Assembly: GCA_041287335.1 (NCBI GenBank)
Contig: JBEULM010000032.1
Coordinates: 1-58,799, forward strand
Direction: 5' to 3'
Source of the DNA: Hydrogenobacter sp.
GTDB taxonomy: Bacteria; Aquificota; Aquificia; Aquificales; Aquificaceae
Length of the DNA: 58,799 bases
The position numbers and the translations under genes were made by a program. Shown here piece after piece: positions 4,481-48,218 of this stretch; position 1 is the first letter of the stretch, and each line of letters opens with the position of its first letter. The notes beneath the pieces were generated by a model. It was not told the DNA's origin and made no database searches. It saw nothing but the letters and a program-made list of their open reading frames with translations.

Positions 4481-6495
4481 CAGGATATTCTCTCCTTTTT
4501 GAAAGCCCTTCTTAGCTTGAATTCTTCCCTTTTACCTTCATTCCACTGATGGACAGGTCTTAAGTAGCCCACTATCCTTGAATATATTTCCGTTTTTGCT
4601 CCACACAATGGACATACCTCTTTTTCTCCAGATATATAACCATGATTTGGACACACGCTAAAAGTTGGGGTTATGGTAAAGTAAGGTAATCTGTAGTTTT
4701 CGCAAACCTTTTTTATAAAGTTTTTAAGTGCCTTCGTATCGTATATCCGCTCACCTATAAAAAAGTGAAGTACGGTTCCTCCGGTGTACTTGACTTGAAA
4801 CTCATCCTGTAAGTCAAGGGCTATAAAGGGATCGTCCGTATAATTTACGGGAAGTTGAGTGGAGTTTGTGTAAAACGGCTCCGCTCCTTCACGATACCTA
4901 TCCTCATTGGCAACAATTATGTTGGGAAATCTTTTCTTGTCTAGCTTGGCAAGTCTGTAGGCTGTTGACTCTGCAGGTGTAGCTTCAAGATTGTAGTTGT
5001 TTCCAGTCTCTTCTTGAAATTCAAGCAACTTTTCTCTCATAAAGTCAAGTATGCGAAGGGTGAAGGACCTACCTGCGTCCGTATATATAGGTTCACCAAG
5101 AAAGTTCAGGCAAGCTTCATTCATTCCAACCAAACCTATGGTGGAGAAATGATTTTTCCAATACTCGCCAAACCTCTCCTTTACGTTCCTTAGATAAAAC
5201 TTGGAGTAAGGATAAAGCCCTCTCTCCGTGAGATCCTCAATGATCTCTCTCTTTCTCTCAAGGCTTTCTTTGATGAGTTCCATCAGATGGGATAGTCTCT
5301 CAAAGAACTCCTCTTCAGAGCTGGACAAGTAGCCTATTCTGGGCATATTTATGGTAACAACGCCTATTGAACCAGTGAGTGGATTAGCACCAAAATAGCT
5401 TCCCCCCCTTCTCTCAAGCTTCTTTACCTCAAGTCTCAACCTGCAACACATACTTCTCACATCCTCTGGCTTCATTTCGGAATTTACAAAGTTGGCAAAG
5501 TACGGTATTCCATACTTACCGCTCATTTTCCAAAGACCTTCGTAATTGGGATTATCCCAGTCAAAATCCTTGGTAATGTTGTAAGTAGGGATCGGAAAGG
5601 TAAATACCCTTCCTCTGGCATCTCCTTCCGTCATAACCTCAAAGAAAGCTTTGTTTAACATATCCATTTCTTCCTGAAACTCCCCGTAAGTTTCGTTCTT
5701 TATTTCTCCACCTACAAGAACGCCTTGATGCCTGTAATACTCGGGAACCTTTAAATCAAAGGTAAGGTTAGTAAAAGGTGCCTGAAAACCCGTTCTTGTA
5801 GGTACATTAAGATTGTATACAAACTCCTGTATAGCTTGCTTTACCTGCTTGTAACTAAGTCCATCATACCTGATGAAAGGTGCAAGAAGAGTATCAAAAT
5901 TGGAAAAAGCTTGTGCGCCAGTAGCTTCACCTTGCAAAGTATAAAGAAAGTTAACTACCTGACCGAGCGCTGAGCTAAAGTGCTTGGGTGGCTTACTTTC
6001 TGTTTTACCGGGAACGCCTCTAAACCCGGTAGCCATGAGATCCCACAAATCCCATCCTACGCAATATACACTTAAAGCCTGTAGCTGATGTATGTGGAAA
6101 TCGCCTTCCGTATGTGCCTTTTTTATGTCTTTACTGTATATTTTATTGAGCCAATAGTCCCTACTTGCGTGTGACGTTACATAAAAGTTAAGCCCTTGAA
6201 GTGAGTAAGTCATATTACTGTTTTCTCTTACCTCCCAGTCTTCTAAGTTTATGTATTTATCAATGAGTTCAACGTTGCTTCTGTATAGTATAAAGGCTTT
6301 GGCAAGCTTTTTAAAAGGACTTTCCAAAAGCACCTCTTCTACTATACGGAAAAACTCGCTTTCGCCGGGTTGTACATCTCCGACCCGTTTGACCACTTGC
6401 GAAATTATACTTTCTATTTCTTCGTCTTTTATCCCTCCCTCTTCAATTGCGAGATTCCTTATAATACTTACTGCAAGATCTTCTATATCGCTCAT
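4480..6495 (-). CDS. nrdD: Anaerobic (class III) ribonucleoside-triphosphate reductase
   Basis: Reduces ribonucleoside triphosphates to deoxy forms under anoxia with a glycyl radical. 671 residues. The C-terminus shows the zinc site CPNHGY...CPLC (Cys615, His618, Cys628, Cys631) and the glycyl radical motif SRIVGYLRPVHQWN with Gly643. Residues 1-90 resemble a short or degenerate ATP-cone region. Upstream genes end 10 bp before it and no Shine-Dalgarno is seen; a TAAAAT word just before the ATG suggests a near-leaderless start. It fits an organism able to grow at very low oxygen or by nitrate respiration. Confidence 0.95.
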   Translation of the reverse strand: MSDIEDLAVSIIRNLAIEEGGIKDEEIESIISQVVKRVGDVQPGESEFFRIVEEVLLESPFKKLAKAFILYRSNVELIDKYINLEDWEVRENSNMTYSLQGLNFYVTSHASRDYWLNKIYSKDIKKAHTEGDFHIHQLQALSVYCVGWDLWDLMATGFRGVPGKTESKPPKHFSSALGQVVNFLYTLQGEATGAQAFSNFDTLLAPFIRYDGLSYKQVKQAIQEFVYNLNVPTRTGFQAPFTNLTFDLKVPEYYRHQGVLVGGEIKNETYGEFQEEMDMLNKAFFEVMTEGDARGRVFTFPIPTYNITKDFDWDNPNYEGLWKMSGKYGIPYFANFVNSEMKPEDVRSMCCRLRLEVKKLERRGGSYFGANPLTGSIGVVTINMPRIGYLSSSEEEFFERLSHLMELIKESLERKREIIEDLTERGLYPYSKFYLRNVKERFGEYWKNHFSTIGLVGMNEACLNFLGEPIYTDAGRSFTLRILDFMREKLLEFQEETGNNYNLEATPAESTAYRLAKLDKKRFPNIIVANEDRYREGAEPFYTNSTQLPVNYTDDPFIALDLQDEFQVKYTGGTVLHFFIGERIYDTKALKNFIKKVCENYRLPYFTITPTFSVCPNHGYISGEKEVCPLCGAKTEIYSRIVGYLRPVHQWNEGKREEFKLRRAFKKERIS

Positions 6496-32681: not shown

Positions 32682-33389
32682 ATGACGAGACTTTTTTCGG
32701 ATGTACGCTTCCTTGATCCACAAAAGCACGGACAACTCAATTGGGAATGTTTAAAATCACGCTGTCCTTCAAGTTGTTGCAATGTTCCCGATCGCACTTT
32801 TGTGGTTCTTGAAGAGTTAGTACGGCTTTCAAAATACTTTCCTATAGTTATAACGGTAGAAGTGGATCATATAGGAAGGGAAGAAAAACTCCTATGCGCC
32901 TATTTCAGGCTCAAAGAGGACAAGAAGGGCTGTGTGTACTTGAAGGAAGGTTTAGGTTGTTTGATAGAGGAGGAAAAGCCATACACTTGCAGGCAGTACC
33001 CTTTCTTAATAAGAGAAAATTATCTGGCTGCGGACTTTACGTGTCCGGGATTTTCTCAAGACGTAGGCACACCTGTGTGGAATAAAGAAAGCATAAATCC
33101 ATATTTTGAAAGCGATTTCTTCTTATACTCTCTGAAGCTTGAGGAAGGTAAAGCGCAAACTGAGGAATTCCTAAAGACACTTTTTGATCTTGACCTTATA
33201 GTAGGAGGAAAACTCACATACGAGACTATAGATGTGTCTTTCAATATGGTAGATGAAAAAAGGCTTTTGGAACTTCCAAAGGATATACTGAGGGAGTTTT
33301 ATCATAGAGGATACTTGCGCCTGGTGTATGCACACCTCAACTCCCTTCAAAATTGGGAAAAGCTCATCAAAAGGTACCTAAAGCCTTGA
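32682..33389 (+). CDS. YkgJ-family cysteine cluster protein (putative Zn/Fe-binding)
   Basis: 235 residues. The cysteine pattern of the family is visible: NWECLKSRCPSSCCN near the start (C-x4-C-x3-CC), GCVYLKEGLGCLIEEEKPYTCRQYPF in the middle, and FTCPGF. Such proteins are thought to bind Zn or an Fe-S cluster and are related to flagellin-lysine methylase-like proteins, but the role is not settled. The C-terminal part is helical and lacks recognised motifs. Divergent from ispE; its end overlaps the convergent SCO gene by 12 bp. Confidence 0.72.
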   Translation: MTRLFSDVRFLDPQKHGQLNWECLKSRCPSSCCNVPDRTFVVLEELVRLSKYFPIVITVEVDHIGREEKLLCAYFRLKEDKKGCVYLKEGLGCLIEEEKPYTCRQYPFLIRENYLAADFTCPGFSQDVGTPVWNKESINPYFESDFFLYSLKLEEGKAQTEEFLKTLFDLDLIVGGKLTYETIDVSFNMVDEKRLLELPKDILREFYHRGYLRLVYAHLNSLQNWEKLIKRYLKP

Positions 33390-34085
33390 TCTGCTTTTCC
33401 ATAAAAAGATGTTTAGCATCAAGGCCAAGGAGAAAGAGACAAAAGCGGGTACGAAGAGTATATACATCCCAAAACCGGTATGCCATCTTCCTTTATAGTA
33501 ATTAAAGCAACTCAAAGGACCTTTCTCCACAGGAATGGTGAAGACTGTTATTCCTCCGCTAAGTTCCCTCAGAAATATATCAAGAAGCTCAAGGTTTTTT
33601 ATTCCATCTATTTCCCAGAGTATATTACCTTTTGCATCTACACCTACAAGGAGAAGATCATGTTCGTATGCTCTTTTCGCTCTGCTCCACGAGTAGTGAA
33701 AGCCTACACGCTGTAAAAGCTCAGGAAGATTTTCTTTATCAATTACACCAAAAAACCAGTTTTTCTCTTTGTCCATATTTAATTCATAAGCCATCCTTTG
33801 CATATCCTCCAGATTGTCTCTTATGTCAAAACTCAAAACAACAAAGTTCACATTTTTCATATCTCTCACCTCATCCTTTATCATCAAAACATAGGGATAG
33901 CAAGCACCTGTGCATTTTGTATATACAAAGGTCAAAACCGCAGGGAGTAACTTCCTTAAACTTATATTACCGTAAGGTGTTTTTATAACATACTCACCTA
34001 CGCTCTTCATGTAATAAGCTTCCCTGTTTAATCCCGCATATTCACCGAAAGACAAAGAAAAAAATAAAAGGAAAAACAGAAGCAT
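33378..34085 (-). CDS. SCO1/SenC-like copper chaperone with C-terminal membrane helix
   Basis: 235 residues: signal peptide (about 1-14), a thioredoxin-like SCO domain with the copper ligands Cys58 and Cys62 in TKCTGACYPY and the conserved His142 in YEHDLLLVG, then an extra C-terminal transmembrane helix (about 207-230), which is not usual for SCO. Known SCO proteins load the CuA centre of subunit II. Its position as the last gene after the CuA subunit and the heme-copper subunit indicates that it matures this enzyme. The start is one base from the subunit I stop. Confidence 0.88.
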   Translation of the reverse strand: MLLFFLLFFSLSFGEYAGLNREAYYMKSVGEYVIKTPYGNISLRKLLPAVLTFVYTKCTGACYPYVLMIKDEVRDMKNVNFVVLSFDIRDNLEDMQRMAYELNMDKEKNWFFGVIDKENLPELLQRVGFHYSWSRAKRAYEHDLLLVGVDAKGNILWEIDGIKNLELLDIFLRELSGGITVFTIPVEKGPLSCFNYYKGRWHTGFGMYILFVPAFVSFSLALMLNIFLWKSRSRL

Positions 34086-35492
34086 TTATTCCCTCATGAT
34101 CTTTAAACTTTTGCTAAGGGAGTAAATAAGGAATATAGCTGAAGATATAAATACTAAAAGGGCAAATCCAGCTCCCCAAAAGGCAAGAGTAGGTCCTACA
34201 TGTATAAAATCCGGATACTTATCGACCCTTCTCATCACGGAAAAGGCACCCCCTAAATAGAACATAAATACAAAACCTGTACCACCTACTATATACATAG
34301 GTAAAAGTAGCTTAGGCGGTGAAAATTCACCAGCGTTTTCCCTTATAAACCAAGTTATGAAAGCTAAACTAAAAAGTACGTTGCCAAGAAGGTTGTAAGT
34401 GTGGAAGTGTGCAGGTACCCAAAGGGTATTGTGAAGCACAAAATTATTCATTATTGTGGCATCAAGGATCGCACCTATACCTCCAATAGCCCAAAAGAGG
34501 GTACCTAAGAAAAAAAGGGACATAGCTAAATTCCATCTTAAACCAGAACCATAAACTGTCGTTAACACGGTGAAAATAGTAACAGCAGCGGCAGGTATAG
34601 GTGCTACCCAAGAAGCTATCTGCCCTATGAATTGAAAGGGTAAAGGTTGTACAAAATCCATGTAAAGGTGATGAAAGTAGGCTAAAAGAACTATGAGAAG
34701 AACGGCGTTCCATGCTAAAGCTACATAACCTTTAATTTTGTAAGGTGGCTTACCCACAAGAAGTGGAAAAAGTTCGTAAAGGGTTGCTATACCAAAATAA
34801 AGCATTTCATTAACGAGAGTGTGACCAAACAGGAATGTAAGGTTTTTGGCAAGCAAAGCATCGCTTTTTACACCAAAGAAATACTGAAGGTAAAAGAGGA
34901 TAAGAAGTATAACACCAGCTATCAGGCAAGCGATTACCCCAATTAGGGTTACTGTAGTTATGAGTATAAAAGGTGGTGTATCGCTCTTTTTGCCAAATAG
35001 AGCTGACCACGCAAGGGCTGAAGATAAGGAATACTTTCTTAAAATGGAAAAAAGCATAGCTAAAGACCATACGAACCATCCTAAACCTAAAAAGGTAAGA
35101 GATAGTATAAAAAGTGGTAAAGACCAACCTGCACCTTTTGTGTAAAAAGGTAAGGGATACAAAAAGTACCAGCCTGGATGTTCACCGCCTAAAAGGAGAG
35201 AGAATATGAGGAGTAACGCACCTGAAAGTGTCATTACGTATGCAAAGGCGTTGGTAAGTATAGGTGGATCTGTATACTTGCTCATAAGATAGTTAACCCC
35301 TGCCATGCTCATTACAAACCACACACCTGCCATTAAAAGTCCATGGGCAGACATGAGTGAGTAAAATATGTTTGGAGCTAACTCGATAAGGTTAGCTTGA
35401 TTTAGCCTCATGAGTATTCCCATAAAAATGGCAAATAAGAAAACCGAAAGAGTAGTCAGTATCCATAAGAAGGTTAATCTTTTGAGACTCAC
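34086..35492 (-). CDS. Heme-copper superfamily subunit I, NO-reductase-like (lacks cross-linkable Tyr)
   Basis: 468 residues, about 12 helices. Low-spin heme ligands His50 (MSAHGLLM) and His364, high-spin ligand His362 (WVPAHFHTYN), and active-site metal ligands His224 (GHTLVNEM) and His274/His275 (YFHHLY). In A- and B-type oxygen reductases the residue four after the first of these (HPEVY) is the tyrosine bonded to His; here it is Asn228, with Glu229 next. So it is unlikely to be an ordinary oxidase. With a CuA subunit, narGHJI and narK in the same operon, a CuA-type nitric oxide reductase related to the B (ba3) family is the best guess. Overlaps subunit II by four bases. Confidence 0.82.
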   Translation of the reverse strand: MSLKRLTFLWILTTLSVFLFAIFMGILMRLNQANLIELAPNIFYSLMSAHGLLMAGVWFVMSMAGVNYLMSKYTDPPILTNAFAYVMTLSGALLLIFSLLLGGEHPGWYFLYPLPFYTKGAGWSLPLFILSLTFLGLGWFVWSLAMLFSILRKYSLSSALAWSALFGKKSDTPPFILITTVTLIGVIACLIAGVILLILFYLQYFFGVKSDALLAKNLTFLFGHTLVNEMLYFGIATLYELFPLLVGKPPYKIKGYVALAWNAVLLIVLLAYFHHLYMDFVQPLPFQFIGQIASWVAPIPAAAVTIFTVLTTVYGSGLRWNLAMSLFFLGTLFWAIGGIGAILDATIMNNFVLHNTLWVPAHFHTYNLLGNVLFSLAFITWFIRENAGEFSPPKLLLPMYIVGGTGFVFMFYLGGAFSVMRRVDKYPDFIHVGPTLAFWGAGFALLVFISSAIFLIYSLSKSLKIMRE

Positions 35493-36046
35493 GGTACCAC
35501 CTCCATCTTAGCATTCATATAAGCATGGGCAATTCCGCAGTATTCCAAACACTGGATGGTATATATGCCTACTTTTTTAAAACGATACCTAAGCCTGTTT
35601 ATGTATCCTGGCATAGCTTGTACCTGAGCTATAAGCCTACCTTCTGGATCGTAAATACCAAAACCGTGGTTAACGTCAAAGCTCGTAACCCTGAACTCAA
35701 CAACTTCACCCTTTTTTACCTTCACCTCATTTCCTAAACTTCTGCTGAAAGTTTCTTCATCAGTTATAGGAAACCCGCTTATCGCAAAGCTGAATTGCTT
35801 TGCTACCACGTGCAGTACTCTATCAGGGGGAGATTGGGAGAAGGCAAAATAAGGTGCTTTTGGTAGAGTAAGTATGAGGTATATTGCTACTGTGATTGAA
35901 AGGAGTAAGAAGAAAAAGAATCTGAACTTTTCAGAATTTTTTAATATTTTTTCTTTAAAAGAGGACAGCGCCACATAAAGGTAAACGGAGGCTATAACTG
36001 TAGAGGATATCAAAAATGCTAAAAAGACAATCCATTGAAGACTCAT
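35489..36046 (-). CDS. CuA-containing subunit II of the heme-copper enzyme
   Basis: 185 residues with two N-terminal membrane helices (about 4-28 and 42-62) and a periplasmic cupredoxin domain. The full CuA set is present: His127 (DVNHGFGI), Cys166, Glu168, Cys170, His174 and Met177 in CLEYCGIAHAYM. Cytochrome c or another periplasmic donor would deliver electrons here. No subunit III is encoded next to it, as in ba3-type and CuA NO reductases. It sits two bases after narK and overlaps subunit I. Confidence 0.93.
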   Translation of the reverse strand: MSLQWIVFLAFLISSTVIASVYLYVALSSFKEKILKNSEKFRFFFFLLLSITVAIYLILTLPKAPYFAFSQSPPDRVLHVVAKQFSFAISGFPITDEETFSRSLGNEVKVKKGEVVEFRVTSFDVNHGFGIYDPEGRLIAQVQAMPGYINRLRYRFKKVGIYTIQCLEYCGIAHAYMNAKMEVVP

Positions 36047-36048
36047 CT

Positions 36049-37353
36049 TTACCCTCCTCTAAACCTCTTAAGCAGTACGGTCACAAAAATAGCTATAAGA
36101 GAAAGTATAACATAAATCACAAACCCCTTTGCGTAGCCGGAACTTCCCATGAATTCAACAAAGGCACCGAGGATGGGTGGAGCTACAAAACCGCCTAAAG
36201 AACCAAGCCCACCTACCCACCCTGCTGCTCCTCCAACCGCTTCAGGTACATACTTAGATACAAGTTTAAACACCGCAGCATTGGCAAGTCCCACACCTGT
36301 ACCTAACAGAATAGTGCCTATTAATCCAGTATAGAAGTTACCTGTTAAGAAAACGATCGTGGAACCCACAAGCATGAAAACAAAACCTAAAAGTGCTACC
36401 TTTTCACCACCTGTCTTGTCACTTAGGTATCCCCCTAAAACCCTTACGAGAGAGGCTAATATAGAGTAGCCCAGGGCGGTTAATGTACCTGCAATAACTA
36501 TAGATACACCGTGATATATAGACCAGTAGGCGGGTAGCCAAGCGGTCAATCCCAGAAAGCCTGCTCCGAAACATACCGCATAAAGAAATACGAGTATCCA
36601 TGTTCTGAAATTTTTGGCTGAGTGTGTTAGAGCCGCAAAGAAACCGCCTTTGGGTATAAGCTCCTGCCCCAGCTGTTTTGCTATGTTCACTGCACGTTCC
36701 CTGGGAACACCCTTGGATGTCAGCTGAAAGTAGCATGCATCAACGGCAAATACAGCGTAAAGTAAAGTACCTATTAAAAGGAAAACAAACCATGCAAGGT
36801 AAGCTCTGGGTAGCCCCCATGCGGATATGGCTATAGGTAAAACAAGGGCAAATATACCAGCAGCTGTATTCCCAATACCTGCATAAATACCAAGAGCCGT
36901 ACCCTGTTTACTTTTCGGATAGCAGTACGAAACCTGAGCTATACCTACAGAGTAAGTGGCTATACTGCATCCGCTTAGCACACCTAAGAGCAGTATAACT
37001 GGATAAAATTCTTTACTCATTCTGTCAGGGTAGTAGGAAAACAAAAGGAAGGTGAGCCCCCCCATGCCAAGTATAGAAAGGAATAGTAGAGTAAGCATAG
37101 GTTTTTTCCCACCGACCTTGTCCACCCACGCTCCAAAGGGTAATCTCAATAAAGAACCTGTCAAATAGGGTACGGACACCAAAAGCCCAAGCTCTATGCC
37201 TGAGAGGTGTAAAAGTCCTTTAAAGCTCTTCGCGGCAGGTCCATACAGAGAAACTGCAGCAAAACCTACAAAGAAGGCGAACGTTGCCCATATAAGACCA
37301 AGAGTGGGGTTATTTACAAGCTTTAACTCTATCTCTACTATGAGCCTTTCCAT
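36049..37353 (-). CDS. narK: NarK-type nitrate/nitrite transporter (MFS)
   Basis: 434 residues, 12 predicted helices, from the ATG at 37353, which is preceded by AAGGAGGT; an ATG six codons upstream overlaps narI but has no such site. NarK marks: RLPFGAWVDKVGGKKP in the first half, NTAAGIFALVLP, and the nitrate signature region GLANAAVFKLVSKYVPEAVGGAAGWVGGLGSLGGF. Either nitrate/proton symport or nitrate/nitrite exchange; sequence alone does not say which. It links nitrate supply with the reductase genes upstream. Confidence 0.93.
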   Translation of the reverse strand: MERLIVEIELKLVNNPTLGLIWATFAFFVGFAAVSLYGPAAKSFKGLLHLSGIELGLLVSVPYLTGSLLRLPFGAWVDKVGGKKPMLTLLFLSILGMGGLTFLLFSYYPDRMSKEFYPVILLLGVLSGCSIATYSVGIAQVSYCYPKSKQGTALGIYAGIGNTAAGIFALVLPIAISAWGLPRAYLAWFVFLLIGTLLYAVFAVDACYFQLTSKGVPRERAVNIAKQLGQELIPKGGFFAALTHSAKNFRTWILVFLYAVCFGAGFLGLTAWLPAYWSIYHGVSIVIAGTLTALGYSILASLVRVLGGYLSDKTGGEKVALLGFVFMLVGSTIVFLTGNFYTGLIGTILLGTGVGLANAAVFKLVSKYVPEAVGGAAGWVGGLGSLGGFVAPPILGAFVEFMGSSGYAKGFVIYVILSLIAIFVTVLLKRFRGG

Positions 37354-37367
37354 CTTTGTTACCTCCT

Positions 37368-38066
37368 TCATCTCTTAAGAGCCTGAAGTCTTCTGAAGTT
37401 TATATAAGGTCTCCACAGGTAGCTTAAAGGAAATGTTACCGAGTGTACGAGCTTAGTAAAAGGGAAGTATGAGAAAAATATGAGAGCAAAAATTATGTGG
37501 AGTTTGTTTGTAAAAGGTATACTCGCCGAGAACGTCGCATTAGGCAAGAACTTAAGTATGCTACTCAGCCAAGGACCTACCGCATAGGACACTCCAAAAA
37601 CACCTTTTATTACAGACTGATACATACCTAAGGAGGTTATTATTAAAAGAAAAAGCAAAACAGCATAATCTTCAAAGGTGGACATGGACCTGATCCGAGG
37701 GTTACTGATCCTTCTCCACAACGCAACTAAAAGTCCCCAAAGAAGCATAACACCTCCTACAATACCAATCCAGCGGAAAAAGTCCACAAGATAAGTAAGT
37801 CCGTACGCACCTCCCACAAATCCCACCACATGAGCTATAAACAGGGTTAGCAATCCCCAGTGCATGTTGAGAGACGCTACTCCTATGGAAGACCTACCAA
37901 AGAAGCCTGAAGAGCGCGTCGTCCAAAGTAAGTCTCCGCGAGCTGTTATATCCCACTTTCCCCTATAGCTTCCCTTAAATCCACTGAAGAGTCTGTAAAA
38001 TATACCCCCAAAAAATAGGAACAAAGCCACATAAGGTAAAGCTATAAATAGGAAGTTTTCCATCAT
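37368..38066 (-). CDS. narI: Respiratory nitrate reductase gamma subunit
   Basis: 232 residues with five membrane helices and histidines for two b hemes, e.g. in LNMHWGLLTLFIAHVVGFVGG and the late NKLHIIFALIFFSYFPFTKLVHSVTFPL, the latter very typical of NarI. It oxidises quinol and passes electrons to NarH. Starts with ATGA overlap on narJ and is followed by narK 15 bp later. Confidence 0.94.
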   Translation of the reverse strand: MMENFLFIALPYVALFLFFGGIFYRLFSGFKGSYRGKWDITARGDLLWTTRSSGFFGRSSIGVASLNMHWGLLTLFIAHVVGFVGGAYGLTYLVDFFRWIGIVGGVMLLWGLLVALWRRISNPRIRSMSTFEDYAVLLFLLIITSLGMYQSVIKGVFGVSYAVGPWLSSILKFLPNATFSASIPFTNKLHIIFALIFFSYFPFTKLVHSVTFPLSYLWRPYINFRRLQALKR

Positions 38067-38626
38067 TTTTTCACCTCCTCTTTTTGTATGTCAAGTTTTA
38101 AAAGTTCTGCAAGCACGTCAAAGAGCAGAATGTAGTATGAACCGAGTTCTTGGAGTCTTTCGCGCATACGTTCAAGGGCTGGCAGTATATACTCCTGTAT
38201 ACACCTTCCCCTTACTTGGTCTTCTTTTCTGTCCGCTGTTAATGCAAGAAATTCAAGCACCATAGGGAGAAAATCAGGCAACTCTTTACTATCAGGCTTT
38301 AGCCCAAAGTATTTGTAAGCACCAAGAAGGTCTATCATGTAGTCGTTCCTATCGGATACACCTGCTTGCGCGCAGGTATTTGATTCTTCAAAGAGATGAG
38401 CGCCGAGATAAAGAGGGCATTTGGGGGAAAGCTCAAAAAGGTCAATATACTCTTCTGCTGACGGTGGATAAAAAGTTAAAAAATCCAGAAGTTTTTCGGA
38501 TAACTCATTTCCAAGAGTATAAAGATAGGTTGCAAGAAGATATCCTTTCTTCTTTACATCTTCTACAGCCACCTCCTCTGGGTTACAGAAAAGTTCCGAT
38601 AAAAGTAAGTACAGTTCCTTCATCAC
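38063..38626 (-). CDS. narJ: Nitrate reductase assembly chaperone NarJ
   Basis: 187 residues, all-helical TorD/NarJ family. FLTFYPPSAEEYIDLFELSPKCPLYLGAHLFEES is the recognisable core; the remainder is divergent, as is usual for the family. It helps insert the molybdenum cofactor into NarG and is not part of the final enzyme. Overlaps narH and narI by four bases each. Confidence 0.88.
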   Translation of the reverse strand: MMKELYLLLSELFCNPEEVAVEDVKKKGYLLATYLYTLGNELSEKLLDFLTFYPPSAEEYIDLFELSPKCPLYLGAHLFEESNTCAQAGVSDRNDYMIDLLGAYKYFGLKPDSKELPDFLPMVLEFLALTADRKEDQVRGRCIQEYILPALERMRERLQELGSYYILLFDVLAELLKLDIQKEEVKK

Positions 38627-40173
38627 AACCCCTCCGTTGCGTGATAGGATTTTCTTCTATTTACGGGTGACCAAGGATTCATGATGTCAAAGCCTGTCAT
38701 CCCTCTTTCCGTGTATGGGTCAATTTCCGCCTTTTCTCTCCTCGTTGTAGGAAGAACAAAGCGCTCGTTATAAAAAGCAAGAGACACACCTCTCAAAATA
38801 CTCTTAGCATCTTCTTCACTTAACCCAACCCTTTTGAGAATTTCAGTATTTGGTTTACCATCAACTTTTAAGCTTCTAAAGTAGTGCCTTACTGCAAGCT
38901 GTCTCCTTATGGACTTTTTGACTTCCTCCTCGTTTCCTGCTGCAAACATATTGGCTAAGTATCTTATGGGTATACGCATTTTATCTATATCTTCTATATC
39001 TGGCAGAAAACCTCCATTCTCAGGTTTTTCCATATCAAATATGTCCGTATCAGAAGGAGAGCTTTTGCCTTTCGCTGTGGCAAGCGGACTTAAAGGTGGT
39101 ATGTAAAAAACCATTGGAAAAGTTCTAAACTCAGGGTGAAGGGGAAGCGCAAGTTCCCATTTTTTAAAGAGTTTGTAAACGGGTGAGCGTTGCGCAGCAT
39201 CTATCCAATCATCCGGTATTCCTTGTTTTTTCGCCTCCTCTATCACTTTCGGGTCAAAGGGATCAAGGATAACCTCTCTTTGAGCTTTGACAAGGCTGCG
39301 CTCATCAGCCAAAAGCGCTTCCTCAAGCTTTTCCAAATCGTAAAGGACCAAACCAAAAGACCTTATTCTACCTACGCATGTGTGGAAGCAAACCGGAGGA
39401 AGCCCTGTTTCAACTCTGGGATAACATAGTATACACTTCTCCATCTTCCCAGTTCTCCAGTTATAGTACGGTTTTTTGTAAGGGCATGAGGATACGCAGT
39501 ACCTCCAGTTTCTGCATCTCACTTGGTCTATGAGGACTATGCCATCTTCTTCCCTTTTGTAAGCTGCACCCGATGGACAGGCACCCACGCAAGCTGGATT
39601 AAGACAGTGGTTGCATATTCTTGGAAGATAAAAGTAAAAAACGTTTTTAAAAGTGAGGAGTGCTTCCACTTCTTCCTTGCTCATACCTTTGAAGTTCACA
39701 TCGTATTTACCCGTTACGTGTGTACCACCAGCATTGTCTTCCCAGTTTACGTTCCAAGTTATAGGTATGTCCTCCTCACCTGTCACCATTGATTTGGGTC
39801 TTGCTACGGGCTGTTGTTTCTTTTGCTCTTTTGTGTGTAGTTCTTCGTAAGTGAAAGTGTAAGGATCTTCGCCGTAGTAATCCTTCATTTCGGGTATATG
39901 CGGATTGAAAAAAAGGTTAAGAAGCATATAAGATTTCCCACCATAGCGCAATTTCAGTTTGTTGCCTTTTTTAACCCATCCTCCTTTCCACAGCTCTTGG
40001 TCTTCCCATCTTTTTGGATATCCTATACCCGGCTTCGTTTCTACATTGTTCCACCACATGTACTCTGCACCTTCTCGGTTTGTCCACACATTCTTACATG
40101 CGACGGTGCATGTGTTGCATCCTATACACTTTTCAAGGTTAAAGGTCATACCAAACTGTGCCTTTACTCTCAT
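38623..40173 (-). CDS. narH: Respiratory nitrate reductase beta subunit
   Basis: 516 residues. Four cluster groups: Cys16-Cys19-Cys22-Cys26 in KCIGCNTCTVACK, CNHCLNPACVGACPSGA, CRNWRYCVSSCPYKK (Trp in place of one Cys, diagnostic of the [3Fe-4S] cluster), and CILCYPRVETGLPPVCFHTCVGR. Cytoplasmic electron relay from NarI to NarG. Starts 11 bp after narG behind AGGAGGT. Confidence 0.97.
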   Translation of the reverse strand: MRVKAQFGMTFNLEKCIGCNTCTVACKNVWTNREGAEYMWWNNVETKPGIGYPKRWEDQELWKGGWVKKGNKLKLRYGGKSYMLLNLFFNPHIPEMKDYYGEDPYTFTYEELHTKEQKKQQPVARPKSMVTGEEDIPITWNVNWEDNAGGTHVTGKYDVNFKGMSKEEVEALLTFKNVFYFYLPRICNHCLNPACVGACPSGAAYKREEDGIVLIDQVRCRNWRYCVSSCPYKKPYYNWRTGKMEKCILCYPRVETGLPPVCFHTCVGRIRSFGLVLYDLEKLEEALLADERSLVKAQREVILDPFDPKVIEEAKKQGIPDDWIDAAQRSPVYKLFKKWELALPLHPEFRTFPMVFYIPPLSPLATAKGKSSPSDTDIFDMEKPENGGFLPDIEDIDKMRIPIRYLANMFAAGNEEEVKKSIRRQLAVRHYFRSLKVDGKPNTEILKRVGLSEEDAKSILRGVSLAFYNERFVLPTTRREKAEIDPYTERGMTGFDIMNPWSPVNRRKSYHATEGL

Positions 40174-40184
40174 GTCAGACCTCC

Positions 40185-43100
40185 TTATTTGGCAGGTAAT
40201 TTGTTCATCTCCTCCTCTTTATAAATGACCTTCTTTCTACCTTCGGCGTGAGGCATTTTGCGTATGAGAACGCAGTGATCTCTTTCGGAAGGTGATGTTC
40301 CCCAATAGTTGGTATAATAAGAAAATTGAGCGTACCCTCCTATCATAGTACCAGGATTCATCAATATCCTCGTAGTTGCGTTGTTGTTTCCTCCCCTAAG
40401 GTCAGAGCATTGGTATTTTTTAGCTAAAGGTGAGAAGGGTATATTTACGTGTCTTTCCACCTGGTGATAGGTTATCGCCATACCCCTCGGAACCTGATGA
40501 CTCACCACAGCTCTAACTACCTCTATACCGTTTTCGTTCCACATCTCCACCCAATCGTTGTCTTCTATATCCATCTCTTTGGCATCTTCCGGATTGAGCC
40601 ACACTGTTGGTCCACCCCTTGATAACTGCATCATAGGCCAGTGGTCTCTAAAAGAACTGTGTATCTGCCACTTTCCGTGAGGTGTTATAAAGCGAAGCAC
40701 TTTTGACTTAGGCTCAATTCTTTTTAGGTTTATGTCGCCAAGCACCACCGTATCCAGAGGAGGCTTATAAGTAGGTAAGGCTTCTCCAAGCTCTCTAAAG
40801 CCTTGATGGTCGTAGTATATCTCTTGCCTACCAGAAAGTGTGTGCCATGGTTTAAGTCTCTCCACATTTAACGTCCAAGGTGCAAAGGTTCTCTGTTTCC
40901 CATCTTCGTTTATAAGTATGGCTCCCCACTGGGGTGTAGTGTGTATCCTCCTTGGTTGCGAAATGATATCCTTGTAATGAACCTTTCTGTCTTTCACTGG
41001 CTCTACAAGATCCGTCAAAGGTAAGCCTACCTTTTTTTCCATTTCCTTGAAGAACATGTAAGCTAACCTTCCATTTAGCTCTGGAGATATCTGAAGTATG
41101 AGTTCACAGATTTGTTCGGGCTTTTCAAAATAGATCTTTCCATTTCTAACCTCCAAAACCTCGTTGTTTTTAAGCTCCTCCACTATAGGTGTAAGGTCCA
41201 CATAGTGACCTTTTGAACCATAACCTTTAGGCTGGCATACAAGAGGACCCAAAGAGACAAGCTTGTCATATATCTTCGTGTAATCCCTTTCAACTATCGT
41301 AATTTTGGGGAATGTCTTTCCTGGCACAGGTTCACACTCTCCGTATTTCCAATCTTTCACTTCACCTTTAGGTTGTGCGAGCTGGTCAGGTGAATCCATG
41401 AAGAGGGCTGTAACCACAACATCTTTTACTGGTTTAGGAAAGTGCTTTTTAGCAAGTTCTGAAAACTTCTGAGCTATGAGCTTGAAGGCTTCCCAATCAT
41501 GCTTTGCCTCCCACGGGGGTTGTATTGCTGGTGTCAAAGGATGTACAAAAGTGTGCATATCTCCAAAGGTTACATCGTACTTTTCGTACCAAAAGGCAGC
41601 TGGAAGTACTATGTCTGCATAATTTGCGGTTGAATCCATCCTTATGTTGAGATTAACGAGAAGGTCAAGCTTGCCTATTGGAGCTGGCTCTCTCCACTCT
41701 ATCTCCTTTATGAGTCCCTTTGCAGGCTCTTCTTCCCAAAGTACATTGTGGTGAGTTCCAAGAAAGTGTTTAAGCGCTATCTCCTGTCCCCTCATACTTG
41801 TACCTATGAGGTTGCCTCTCCAAACTATAAGTACTTTAAGATGGTTTTCTTTGGCATCCGGGTCGTGTATTGCGAATCTGTACCTGCCCTCCTTAAACTG
41901 CTTTACGATCCAGTTTACGACTTCTTCATCAGTCCTGCATCCCGCTTTTATGGCTTCTTCATAAACTTCCAGAGGGTTTTTCTTATCAAAAGTTGGATAA
42001 AAGGGTAACCATCCAAGCCTTACAGCTAAGGCATTCATATCCGCAGCGTGGTTGTATCTTTCTTTCATCTTCGTATTTTCAGCCCATTGGGTATCAAAGG
42101 TCATAGGGTCGTATCTCCACTGACCTGTGTGGAAATACCAGAAAGATGTAGAGTTCTGCATTCTTGGCGGTCTCGTCCAATCAAGGGCACCACCTAAATT
42201 TACAAAAGCTGCGTGTAGTCTCGTGTGCTGTGTACCTACATAATGGTTAAAGTTGCCACCATTCCTTCCGTTGCATCCACAAAGAGCGAGCATAACAGCT
42301 AAGGCTCTGTAATAAAGAGGTCCGCCATGGTAAAAGTGTAAAAGCCCAGGACCCGTTATAACCATGGATCTACCTTGGGTTTTTTCTGCATTTTCTGCGA
42401 ACTCTCTACCTACCTGTATGGCAAGGTTCCTGCTAACCCCAGTCTGAGACTCCTGCCACGCAGGAGTAAAAGGCTTAGGATCATCGTAATCCTTGGGATA
42501 ATCACCTCCTAAACCTCTTGAGACACCTACCTGTGCCATGAGAAGGTCAAAGGCTGTTGTCACGATGATTTCTTTACCGTCTTTACCCTTTATAACCTTT
42601 GCTGGAACATCTCTTATTATCTCTTTGGGTGGCTTGCCCTTCCCTTCAGTCTTCCCTGGGAATATACTGAAGGTATCAGTGAAATCGTAAAAAATCACGG
42701 GACATCTCAGGTTCTCATGGTCTAATAAAGAAAGGAGCGGATCAAAGTCCTCCCCAGTTTTTGCATTCTTCAGCTGAAGGTTCCACCTACCCGTGGGTTC
42801 TTTTTCCCATCTGAAACCTATACTACCCATAGGCAGTTGAAGCTTTCCATTTTTATCCATCATAATGAGCTTCCAGTCAGCATTCTCTTCGTCTGAGTAT
42901 TCATACAAGTCAGAAGCTCTCAAAAATCTACCCATGCGGTATTTGTTTCCGTCTCTATCAAGCATTACGAGAAAAGGAAGGTTTGTGTACCTTTTTACGT
43001 AATCCTTAAAGTAAGGTACCTCCCTTTCGACAAAGAACTCTTTGAGAATTACATGAATACACGCCATGAAAAAAGCACCATCGCTACCCGGAATTAGGGG

Positions 43101-43931
43101 TATCCATAAGTCAGCGTATTTGGTAACATCCGAGTAGTTTGGTGAAACGCTCACTATCTTTGTCCCTCTCATTTTTGCCTCAGGTATGAAGTGACAGTCT
43201 GCTGTTCTCGTCATATTTAGATTTGTCCCCGCTATTATGATGTAAGTGCTTTGATACCAATCCGAGCTTTCACAGTTTTCCGTTTGGTCACCCCACATAG
43301 CGGGAGAATTGTGCGGAAGGTCATGATACCATTCGTAGTAACTGCAGTATATACCACCCAAAAGGTTGTTATATCTTTGCCCGGAGATAAAGCTCACAAG
43401 GCTCATAGCGGGTATAGGTGAAAAGGAAGCTATATGATCAGGTCCATACTTCTTTATAGTGTATATTTGAGCACCAGCTATTATTTCAGTAGCTTCATCC
43501 CACGTTACCCTCTTCCACCCCCCTTTACCTCTTGCGGATTTGTATCTTTTAGATCTCTCTTCATTTTCAACTATGCTTGCCCATGCCTCCACAGGGTCCT
43601 TACCTTTCTTTTTTTCTTCATAGTACATATCCCATAAGACCTTACGCACATATGGATACTTAGGTCTTAATGGTGAGTAGGGATACCATGAGGCAGTCAC
43701 ACCTCTCTGACAGCCTCTTGGTTCTACATTGGGAACATCTGGCTCTATCTGAGGATAGTCTACTTTCTGAAGTTCCCAAACTATCATGCCATCTTTAACA
43801 AACACCTCCCAGCTACAAGCCATGGAACAATTAACACCGTGCGCAGTTCTCACGCTGTAGTCATAGGACCATCTTTTTCTGTAAAACTCTTCCCACGACC
43901 TTGAATCTTCCGTTTCTCTGAACCACCTCAT
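40185..43931 (-). CDS. narG: Respiratory nitrate reductase alpha subunit (molybdenum)
   Basis: 1248 residues. N-terminal His/Cys cluster FS0 (His31, Cys35, Cys39, Cys74) and Mo-coordinating Asp204 in WYHDLPHNSPAMWG, the equivalent of E. coli Asp222. The start MRWFRETEDSRSWEEFYRKRW resembles the remnant leader of membrane-bound NarG, without a functional Tat signal, so the active site faces the cytoplasm. Reduces nitrate to nitrite with bis-MGD. Overlaps the cytochrome c gene by four bases. Confidence 0.98.
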   Translation of the reverse strand: MRWFRETEDSRSWEEFYRKRWSYDYSVRTAHGVNCSMACSWEVFVKDGMIVWELQKVDYPQIEPDVPNVEPRGCQRGVTASWYPYSPLRPKYPYVRKVLWDMYYEEKKKGKDPVEAWASIVENEERSKRYKSARGKGGWKRVTWDEATEIIAGAQIYTIKKYGPDHIASFSPIPAMSLVSFISGQRYNNLLGGIYCSYYEWYHDLPHNSPAMWGDQTENCESSDWYQSTYIIIAGTNLNMTRTADCHFIPEAKMRGTKIVSVSPNYSDVTKYADLWIPLIPGSDGAFFMACIHVILKEFFVEREVPYFKDYVKRYTNLPFLVMLDRDGNKYRMGRFLRASDLYEYSDEENADWKLIMMDKNGKLQLPMGSIGFRWEKEPTGRWNLQLKNAKTGEDFDPLLSLLDHENLRCPVIFYDFTDTFSIFPGKTEGKGKPPKEIIRDVPAKVIKGKDGKEIIVTTAFDLLMAQVGVSRGLGGDYPKDYDDPKPFTPAWQESQTGVSRNLAIQVGREFAENAEKTQGRSMVITGPGLLHFYHGGPLYYRALAVMLALCGCNGRNGGNFNHYVGTQHTRLHAAFVNLGGALDWTRPPRMQNSTSFWYFHTGQWRYDPMTFDTQWAENTKMKERYNHAADMNALAVRLGWLPFYPTFDKKNPLEVYEEAIKAGCRTDEEVVNWIVKQFKEGRYRFAIHDPDAKENHLKVLIVWRGNLIGTSMRGQEIALKHFLGTHHNVLWEEEPAKGLIKEIEWREPAPIGKLDLLVNLNIRMDSTANYADIVLPAAFWYEKYDVTFGDMHTFVHPLTPAIQPPWEAKHDWEAFKLIAQKFSELAKKHFPKPVKDVVVTALFMDSPDQLAQPKGEVKDWKYGECEPVPGKTFPKITIVERDYTKIYDKLVSLGPLVCQPKGYGSKGHYVDLTPIVEELKNNEVLEVRNGKIYFEKPEQICELILQISPELNGRLAYMFFKEMEKKVGLPLTDLVEPVKDRKVHYKDIISQPRRIHTTPQWGAILINEDGKQRTFAPWTLNVERLKPWHTLSGRQEIYYDHQGFRELGEALPTYKPPLDTVVLGDINLKRIEPKSKVLRFITPHGKWQIHSSFRDHWPMMQLSRGGPTVWLNPEDAKEMDIEDNDWVEMWNENGIEVVRAVVSHQVPRGMAITYHQVERHVNIPFSPLAKKYQCSDLRGGNNNATTRILMNPGTMIGGYAQFSYYTNYWGTSPSERDHCVLIRKMPHAEGRKKVIYKEEEMNKLPAK

Positions 43932-44380
43932 ACTTTAACCTCCACAGATTTTTTGCTGAAAAGAAAAGCCAAAAAGCTTAACATAATGGCTAAACCCGTC
44001 CCCAAAGCCAGCGAAATGTAGTAGGTAAAAGTGCGGTTCGTAGTCCTACTTTCTTCAGGAGACTTAAGATAGTTAACCAAAGCGTTCACCTCATCGTCGG
44101 TGAGTCCAAGATCTGGCATAGGGGTGCCATACTCCTTTAATAAGGAAAGAGCAACGTTATCCTTTGCATTAATAAGACTTGTAGGTGACTTAATGAACCT
44201 CTTCAACCACTCTAAATCCCTCCGCTCTGACACGCCCTTCAAGTCCGGTCCTACCAGCTTTCCCTTGCCAATGGTATGACATGCTGAACACTTCTGCTCA
44301 AAAATCTTTCTACCTATATCATCCGTACCGTAGGATGACACTATACAGAGGATGAGGAGTAAAAACAGAATTTTATTCAT
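43928..44380 (-). CDS. Membrane-anchored monoheme cytochrome c heading the nar operon
   Basis: 150 residues: signal peptide (about 1-18), heme site CSACH (Cys31, Cys34, His35) with a likely axial Met in GTPMPDLG, and a C-terminal membrane helix (about 118-142). The second of two close ATGs is preferred because AGGAGGT lies six bases before it and directly abuts the first. It may carry electrons between the quinol side and periplasmic acceptors, such as the CuA subunit encoded later in the operon, comparable in position to NarC of Thermus, though that protein is diheme. Confidence 0.9.
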   Translation of the reverse strand: MNKILFLLLILCIVSSYGTDDIGRKIFEQKCSACHTIGKGKLVGPDLKGVSERRDLEWLKRFIKSPTSLINAKDNVALSLLKEYGTPMPDLGLTDDEVNALVNYLKSPEESRTTNRTFTYYISLALGTGLAIMLSFLAFLFSKKSVEVKV

Positions 44381-44402
44381 ATTCATACCTCCTAATTCAG
44401 GA

Positions 44403-47543: not shown

Positions 47544-47843
47544 TTAAGGTGCAGGGGCTATGGTAGCTATAACCACCATATCCATATCGGCTTTCATGCC
47601 GTGAGTTTCCAAAGGCTCACAAGCGACCAGATCACCTTCCTCCACCTGTATCCATTCTTCGCCTTTGAGAAATTTGCCACTACCCTTTGCACAGTAAAGG
47701 AGAACCCTTGAGGGGCTTGTGTGAGGAGGTATTTCACTTTCTGATGGCATATAAAAGATTACTATCCTTACTTCTTTGGAATCGTATGCGAGTCTGTGTC
47801 TGAACTGCGCTTGATCTGAAACCTTCAAAAGATTCGTCTTCAT
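47544..47843 (-). CDS. Small cupin-domain protein
   Basis: 99 residues, single-domain cupin: motif 1 about PPHTSPSRVLLYCAKGSGKF (His but few other usual ligands), then EEGDLVACEPLETHGMKA, with the His of motif 2. Two to three possible metal ligands remain, so metal binding is likely but not certain. It sits between the membrane protein and the DUF542 protein with gaps of 3 and 13 bp. Cupins of this kind occur beside nitrogen-oxide-responsive genes in other denitrifiers; a sensory or protective role is inference. Confidence 0.75.
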   Translation of the reverse strand: MKTNLLKVSDQAQFRHRLAYDSKEVRIVIFYMPSESEIPPHTSPSRVLLYCAKGSGKFLKGEEWIQVEEGDLVACEPLETHGMKADMDMVVIATIAPAP

Positions 47844-47846
47844 CTT

Positions 47847-48218
47847 TTACCTCCAATTCATGCTTTTTAAGATGTTAAAGAGATACATGACAACGGATAA
47901 AAAGAGCAGTAAAGACCCAAGGTTTTTGAAAAATAAGCTATTTGTTAAAAAGCCGTAAACCTGAGTTAAAAGCCCTACATTTAGAAGGGTAGTGTGTAGG
48001 TATCCGAGCTTAAAGCTGTATATTTTACCTCTGCTCAGCATGGGGACTACGTGGTAAGTAACGCCTATTATCATTTGAGTAACAAATCCTATCAGCTGGA
48101 TGTGTGCATGAACAATAGAGGGAAGCGTTTGTCTAATACTGAGTATCAGCCCTAAGGAACTTCCTAAGAGAAGGTAAAGAAAGCTCAAAAGTAAGTTCAT
48201 TCGTGTAAGCGGATTCAT
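47847..48218 (-). CDS. Small heme-copper-oxidase-like membrane protein
   Basis: 123 residues, four predicted helices (about 8-27, 34-61, 72-91, 96-116). Helix 2 carries IVHAHIQLIGFVTQMIIGVTYHVVPML with His37, His39 and His56, which resembles the histidine-bearing helix of cbb3 subunit I / NorB proteins and of NnrS-related proteins. A complete oxidase is impossible at this size; heme binding or a signalling or chaperone role is conceivable. First gene of a three-gene operon with a cupin and a DUF542 protein. A near-leaderless promoter and an FNR-like box lie directly upstream. Confidence 0.7.
   Translation of the reverse strand: MNPLTRMNLLLSFLYLLLGSSLGLILSIRQTLPSIVHAHIQLIGFVTQMIIGVTYHVVPMLSRGKIYSFKLGYLHTTLLNVGLLTQVYGFLTNSLFFKNLGSLLLFLSVVMYLFNILKSMNWR

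Follow-up and report, generated by a model that had tools for sequence, protein, structure and literature searches.

Gene organization of the locus

Examining a 58,799-nucleotide stretch of Hydrogenobacter sp. DNA (contig JBEULM010000032.1; the whole stretch is hereafter called the window), we found on its minus strand the genes of a CuA-carrying subunit II, a heme-copper subunit I and an SCO/SenC-like protein arranged in tandem behind genes of nitrate respiration (Table 1). From the gene of a membrane-anchored cytochrome c through narGHJI-narK to the two subunit genes and the SCO/SenC-like gene, neighboring genes are separated by gaps or overlaps of only a few bases, and the nine genes therefore look like one operon, of which the subunit II-subunit I-SCO/SenC tandem is the apparent 3' end. 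A sigma-70-like sequence, TTGACA-17-TAAATT (a consensus match only), is positioned at 44431-44403, upstream of the cytochrome c gene, whose product is a candidate electron donor. The last codons of subunit II share 4 nt with the beginning of subunit I, and subunit II itself carries two N-terminal transmembrane (TM) helices and a complete CuA motif, CLEYCGIAHAYM.

The plus-strand reading of the subunit I region is full of stop codons, the open reading frame being that of the minus strand. Its product has about 11-12 TM helices, and NCBIfam oxidase models scored it far under their cut-offs. An AF2 model calculated without hemes (pLDDT 88, pTM 0.90) adopts the heme-copper oxidase fold, and comparison of folds gave Z values of 34 to aa3 and 31.7 to the NO reductase RdNOR (4xyd). 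Elsewhere in the window, positions 47847-48218 of the minus strand encode a 123-aa COX1-like mini-protein with several hydrophobic helices and a weak PF00115 match (26 bits), located between carB-like and proS-like genes and beside a small cupin-like ORF (47544-47843).

Table 1. Genes and residues of the apparent nitrate-respiration operon, positions as in the window
Feature	Position	Strand	Basis and remarks
Membrane-anchored cytochrome c	43928..44386	minus	CSACH heme motif, C-terminal TM; first gene of apparent operon
NarG-like nitrate reductase alpha subunit	40185..43931	minus	1248-aa ORF upstream of narH; named by sequence features and position
NarH, nitrate reductase beta subunit	38623..40173	minus	TIGR01660, 676 bits, over cut-off
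NarJ chaperone	38063..38626	minus	TIGR00684, over cut-off
NarI, nitrate reductase gamma subunit	37368..38066	minus	PF02665
NarK-type nitrate/nitrite transporter	36049..37371	minus	MFS_1; TIGR00886 under its cut-off
Subunit II (NorS-like, CuA cupredoxin, 185 aa)	35489..36046	minus	COX2 PF00116, 37 bits
Subunit I (NorY-like, catalytic heme-copper)	35492..34086	minus	GTG start, 468 aa; COX1 PF00115, 156.8 bits
N228 and E229 of subunit I	codons 228 and 229, counting down from 35492	minus	
SCO/SenC-like copper chaperone	33378..34085	minus	CxxxC (CTGAC), C-terminal TM; directly behind subunit I

Active site of subunit I

The active-site segment of subunit I reads G223-H224-T-L-V-N228-E229-M-L-Y232; translation of the minus-strand ORF thus confirms the T-L-V-N-E that an earlier note on this DNA had placed after His224. 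The six heme and metal His residues reported there are likewise all seen in the alignment, H50 and H364 as ligands of the low-spin heme, H362 as that of the high-spin heme and H224, H274 and H275 as those of CuB. N228 aligns onto the cross-linked Tyr of the aa3 (SHPAVY) and ba3-type (GHPLVY) oxidases encoded in the same genome. With the six His kept and Asn on the Tyr column, the view of an intact enzyme with no His-Tyr cofactor at the usual place holds. The P-E-V-Y that had been given for A- and B-type oxidases does not extend to every B-type enzyme, as this genome's own has P-L-V-Y. Among 103 aligned subunit I sequences (the window protein and 102 others), the residue in this column is Asn in 83, Tyr in 19 and Phe in one, indicating that N228 is a conserved family trait and neither chance nor a sequencing error.

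In C-type (cbb3) oxidases the active-site Tyr is located on TM7, six residues ahead of the HH pair, where it replaces the Tyr of TM6. A Tyr on another helix, which the earlier note had named as a possible stand-in, is absent at the sequence level from this C-type position (HH minus 6, position 268), which holds Val, Ile or Leu in all 83 Asn-family members. Y232, Y239 and Y366 are invariant across the aligned sequences, and Y277 is present in all but one of them. Y232 and Y239 were rejected as standard cross-link partners, since helix geometry would position them two or more turns below H224.

Relatives of the window protein

Relatives were collected by a scan of 84,980 species genomes, from which the best 80 of 468 were kept, a sample biased to the window protein's own branch. 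The search patterns were placed on TM7 and TM10, leaving the Asn of TM6 unselected, and Asn228 was therefore not forced by the way in which relatives were chosen. These best 80 of 468 share 44-61% identity with the window subunit I and originate mainly from Bacteroidota, and also from Kapabacteria, Binatota, Methylomirabilota, Acidobacteriota and Proteobacteria. Asn228, Y232 and Y239 are invariant in the 83 Asn-family members sampled (83/83), and the HHLYMDF block at the CuB pair is almost so. COX2 adjoins subunit I in 76/80 loci examined, and in the four loci with no COX2 match, all of the type carrying Glu at position 229, the locus sequence starts within 0.2 kb of subunit I. The full CuA motif is present in 75 of the 76 COX2 proteins, and SCO was found in 76/80 loci, mostly at the same place. 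A Pfam search of the window SCO/SenC-like protein itself yielded no match; by phmmer it is similar to the SCO proteins equally placed at 56/56 Glu-type loci, a representative of which matches PF02630.

A protein search of plasmids recovered the sNOR of Ruegeria (ex Silicibacter) pomeroyi with 95% of the query covered, an E value of 2e-48 and 33% identity to the window subunit I (33-35% over our comparisons); its locus, carried on a megaplasmid, has the same COX2-COX1-SCO order as the window. The same search detected a relative in Thermomicrobium roseum (37% identity). On plasmid pW43B of Parasedimentitalea marina, an unannotated sNOR subunit I (4908-6364) is divided between two overlapping frames, reflecting a frameshift or a sequencing error.

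Glu229 and residues that vary with it

Position 229 is Glu in 59/83 Asn-family members and Leu, Ile, Val or Ala in the remaining 24. Of the motif GHTLVNE, for which the earlier note had proposed a search of homologues, the Asn (83/83) but not the Glu is a family-wide residue. A tree built without the trait columns parts the two groups by a single branch (support 100/98), with Glu229 marking one side (59/59, mostly Bacteroidota) and Leu, Ile, Val or Ala found in 24/24 sequences of the sister branch, which includes the Ruegeria pomeroyi reference sNOR. The oxygen-reductase outgroup is attached by very long branches and roots the Asn family only loosely, such that Glu229 may have been either gained or lost. 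Further positions vary together with Glu229. In the Glu branch, positions 367 and 349 are Asn in 59/59 and position 371 is Asn in 57 and Gln in two, while the sister branch carries mainly hydrophobic residues at all three.

On TM10, N367 follows the heme ligand H362 by five residues, the same distance at which E229 follows H224 on TM6. TM6 and TM10 are two central helices of the fold and run in parallel, and given the equal spacing from the ligands, E229 and N367 should share depth. N349, positioned in the loop ahead of TM10, is probably outside such a cluster. In Ruegeria pomeroyi, sNOR carries Ala at 229 and Glu at 371, a lone instance consistent with the two positions being close to each other. 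It is as though the acid had switched helices between TM6 and TM10. We tentatively suggest that Glu229 together with Asn367 and Asn371 may form a buried polar or protonatable cluster specific to one sNOR branch, perhaps tuning proton delivery. The further-reaching proposal, that Glu229 is a second, undescribed acid near the active site, locked with Asn367 and Asn371 into a cluster that acts as proton donor and defines a functional subtype across a large, mainly Bacteroidota branch, we consider rather doubtful. If true, the cluster would take the proton-donor role of the Tyr or of the cNOR glutamates, possibly with electrogenic proton uptake, and the Glu-branch enzymes would constitute a functional subtype that databases conceal under the label of cytochrome c oxidase. 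The Glu and Asn positions of the proposed cluster are specific residues on which mutagenesis could probe the proton route in NORs with no Tyr.

Distribution, origin and genomic background

Within the window's phylum, Asn-type subunit I was found in 3/136 genomes, that of the window and two of another genus, both of the latter carrying an Asn-aliphatic type (GHTLVNITMY). One Asn-aliphatic locus, in a relative of the same family (G017:C15), immediately adjoins a nar operon that runs the opposite way, and its SCO gene is followed by an additional small membrane ORF. In the tree, the window subunit I groups with Kapabacteria, HR21 and Binatia (support 100/98), apart from the sNOR of its family's other genomes, and a topology uniting it with the family's other member was rejected (AU p 0.0005). 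This grouping suggests that the gene was probably acquired horizontally, with two separate acquisitions in the phylum as the simplest reading. Given the 3/136 genomes, it is unusual for a nitrate-respiration operon of this phylum to include such a gene, which appears to have been acquired.

The genome (1.67 Mb in 64 contigs) also contains genes for aa3 and ba3-type oxidases and for a cNOR, plus a nos cluster. The norB of this cNOR is split over the ends of contigs C8 and C52, and NosZ is represented by a 5' fragment only (its first 78 residues) at the end of contig C62, such that denitrification genes seem to break the assembly. Searches of the genome for NirS and NirK yielded a weak beta-propeller match or nothing, none of which passed; either these genes fell into gaps of the assembly or NO has another source. 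On contig C54 (4624-5616), a nos cluster (the end of nosD, nosF, nosY and a cytochrome c) is followed by another CuA subunit and then by a further heme-copper subunit I, of which the contig includes only the beginning before it ends. Contig C5 (3261-4445, plus strand) encodes a COX1-like protein of 431 aa beside ctaB-like genes. This protein has kept the first His of CuB (GHIQQF) as well as the H-x-H of the heme, lacks the CuB HH pair and has Phe at the Tyr site; it is possibly a non-catalytic or sensor-like paralogue.

Function and alternative readings

Five features place the window protein with sNOR: Asn228, the six His, the CuA subunit II, the SCO/SenC neighbor and kinship to sNOR sequences. 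We conclude that it is very probably the catalytic subunit of a nitric oxide reductase of the sNOR type, in a norS-norY-senC arrangement that ends a nitrate-respiration operon. The earlier note had thought of a distinct active-site variant; distinct it is, but it had already been described as sNOR. In Table A4 of PMC8756737 the residue at the Tyr site is Y in oxygen reductases, E in cNOR and qNOR, N in sNOR and CuANOR, Q in eNOR and D in gNOR; the Asn hallmark of sNOR follows Hemp & Gennis 2008 and Stein et al. 2007, and Silicibacter (now Ruegeria) pomeroyi is among the sNOR holders. Asn at the Tyr site, the core finding, was thus known, and the Glu/Asn sub-lineage is the only part that is possibly new.

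From gene anatomy, residues, kinship and operon context we infer NO as the substrate, NO reduction being the likely function of the enzyme. Electrons would flow from cytochrome c to the CuA of subunit II, from there to the low-spin heme (H50/H364) and on to the binuclear center of high-spin heme (H362) and CuB (H224/H274/H275), at which two NO would be converted to N2O, while SCO/SenC would supply the copper. The change of Tyr to Asn228 would remove the His-Tyr radical cofactor required for one-step O2 splitting and would leave a polar group for NO chemistry, as a hydrogen-bond partner. CuA-type NORs of Bacillus carry the Tyr to Asn change as well, and among them is a match to the NO reductase purified from B. 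azotoformans (PMC3475470), an electrogenic enzyme (PMC5826923); published support for the function of sNOR itself is indirect.

The surroundings of the relatives' genes point the same way. RIC iron-sulfur repair (NO-stress) proteins, Rrf2 regulators, nitrite-family transporters and nar genes recur near several of the loci, and NarG-like homologues adjoin other sNOR loci. NosZ was present in 40/47 Bacteroidota carriers of the Glu type, compared with 84/247 genomes of a class-wide draw, or 79/241 once six carriers were taken out (40/47 versus 79/241, Fisher p 2e-11, phylogeny and sampling source ignored). In 26/47 of these carriers no cNOR/qNOR homologue was detected at E 1e-8, using as query one NorB fragment from the window's genome, by which divergent homologues may be missed.

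A heme-copper fold and a CuA site are common to oxidases, and the sNOR of Nitrosomonas europaea, which resembles B-type oxidases and is up 2.7-10.8 fold under O2 limitation, has been argued on the basis of transcription to be a possible high-affinity O2 reductase (PMC6967387). By analogy, the window enzyme could reduce oxygen at low O2 with no Tyr cofactor, NO reduction being a side reaction. However, the Tyr is missing in 83/83 members with no substitute at the C-type position, the loci are linked to nar, RIC and nitrite transporter genes, NosZ is enriched in carriers, and the genome has aa3 and ba3-type oxidases of its own, all of which render oxygen reduction an improbable main function. 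Weighing against the sNOR reading, besides the N. europaea transcription data, are the cNOR encoded in the same genome, the searches of that genome in which no NirS or NirK passed, and the placement of the reference sNOR in the branch with no Glu229.

Two other readings concern Glu229 and the branch that it marks. The earlier note had likened Glu229 to the glutamate of cNOR and qNOR; acting in that way it would bind a non-heme metal, which would then be Fe instead of Cu, and a carboxylate no more than five residues from the first metal His that is invariant in its own branch (59/59) would suit such a role. The cNOR glutamate, however, occupies His+4, the place of Asn228 here, whereas a residue at His+5 points ~100 degrees away; moreover, Glu is missing from 24/24 of the sister branch, and the CuA subunit and SCO neighbor suit a copper enzyme. 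We conclude from the alignment that Glu229 is not a cNOR-style metal ligand, the contrary being very hard to reconcile with these positions. It is less far-fetched, yet still unlikely, that the Glu branch lies outside sNOR and corresponds to a different NOR family, such as nNOR, for which a name already exists in Murali et al. 2024, who reportedly list nNOR as an additional family. The fully supported split (100/98) and the fixed differences at 229, 349, 367 and 371 would agree with this, and under the newest published family profiles the branch may prove to bear a different name. On the other side, Asn228, Y232, Y239, the HHLYMDF block and the gene order are common to the Glu and sNOR branches, and a Ca. 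Methylomirabilis protein falls in the Glu branch, sNOR being the name published for the enzyme of that genus (PMC6094997), which may differ from the protein in our tree.

Pfam, NCBIfam and PLSDB annotation assign Asn-type subunit I genes to cytochrome c oxidase subunit I, and a capacity to reduce NO and produce N2O is consequently overlooked. This bears on the Bacteroidota carriers in particular, as the 26 with no other NO reductase detected belong to a set of 47 in which, nevertheless, 40 encode N2O reductase.

Comparison with known systems

The window enzyme shares fold, ligands and a CuA subunit with the Thermus-type ba3 (B-type) oxygen reductase. Its conserved Y239 and T305 match, in the alignment, what we take to be Y248 and T312 of the Thermus K-path, whereas the cross-linked Tyr237 is replaced by Asn228 and Tyr244 by Ile235. 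Asn228 thus stands where A- and B-type oxygen reductases have a cross-linkable Tyr at His+4, and also where eNOR and gNOR have Gln and Asp. With cNOR and qNOR the enzyme has in common the overall fold (RdNOR 4xyd, Z 31.7) and the proposed reaction of 2 NO to N2O; unlike them, it carries Asn at His+4 in place of Glu and a CuA subunit in place of NorC or a quinol fusion, and those enzymes use FeB.

The bNOR/CuANOR of Bacillus azotoformans (type I, PMC3475470) resembles the window enzyme in being B-type-like with Tyr changed to Asn, a CuA site and a SenC neighbor, and has been shown biochemically to be an NO reductase. It differs in its subunit I of ~568 aa, with 13 TM helices for bNOR, and in a third subunit of 46 aa (length from PMC3475470). 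The window subunit I, with 468 aa and about 11-12 TM helices, is 100 residues shorter and fits type II/sNOR, characterized by a short subunit I and a two-TM subunit II. The closest likeness is to sNOR (NorSY-SenC), with which the window shares Asn for Tyr, the six His, a CuA subunit II, an adjoining SCO/SenC and a subunit I of ~470 aa. Compared with the Ruegeria branch of sNOR, the window protein has Glu229, Asn349, Asn367 and Asn371 at positions that are mostly hydrophobic there, and its locus, unlike that of Ruegeria, closes a nar operon and has no third small subunit gene after SCO.
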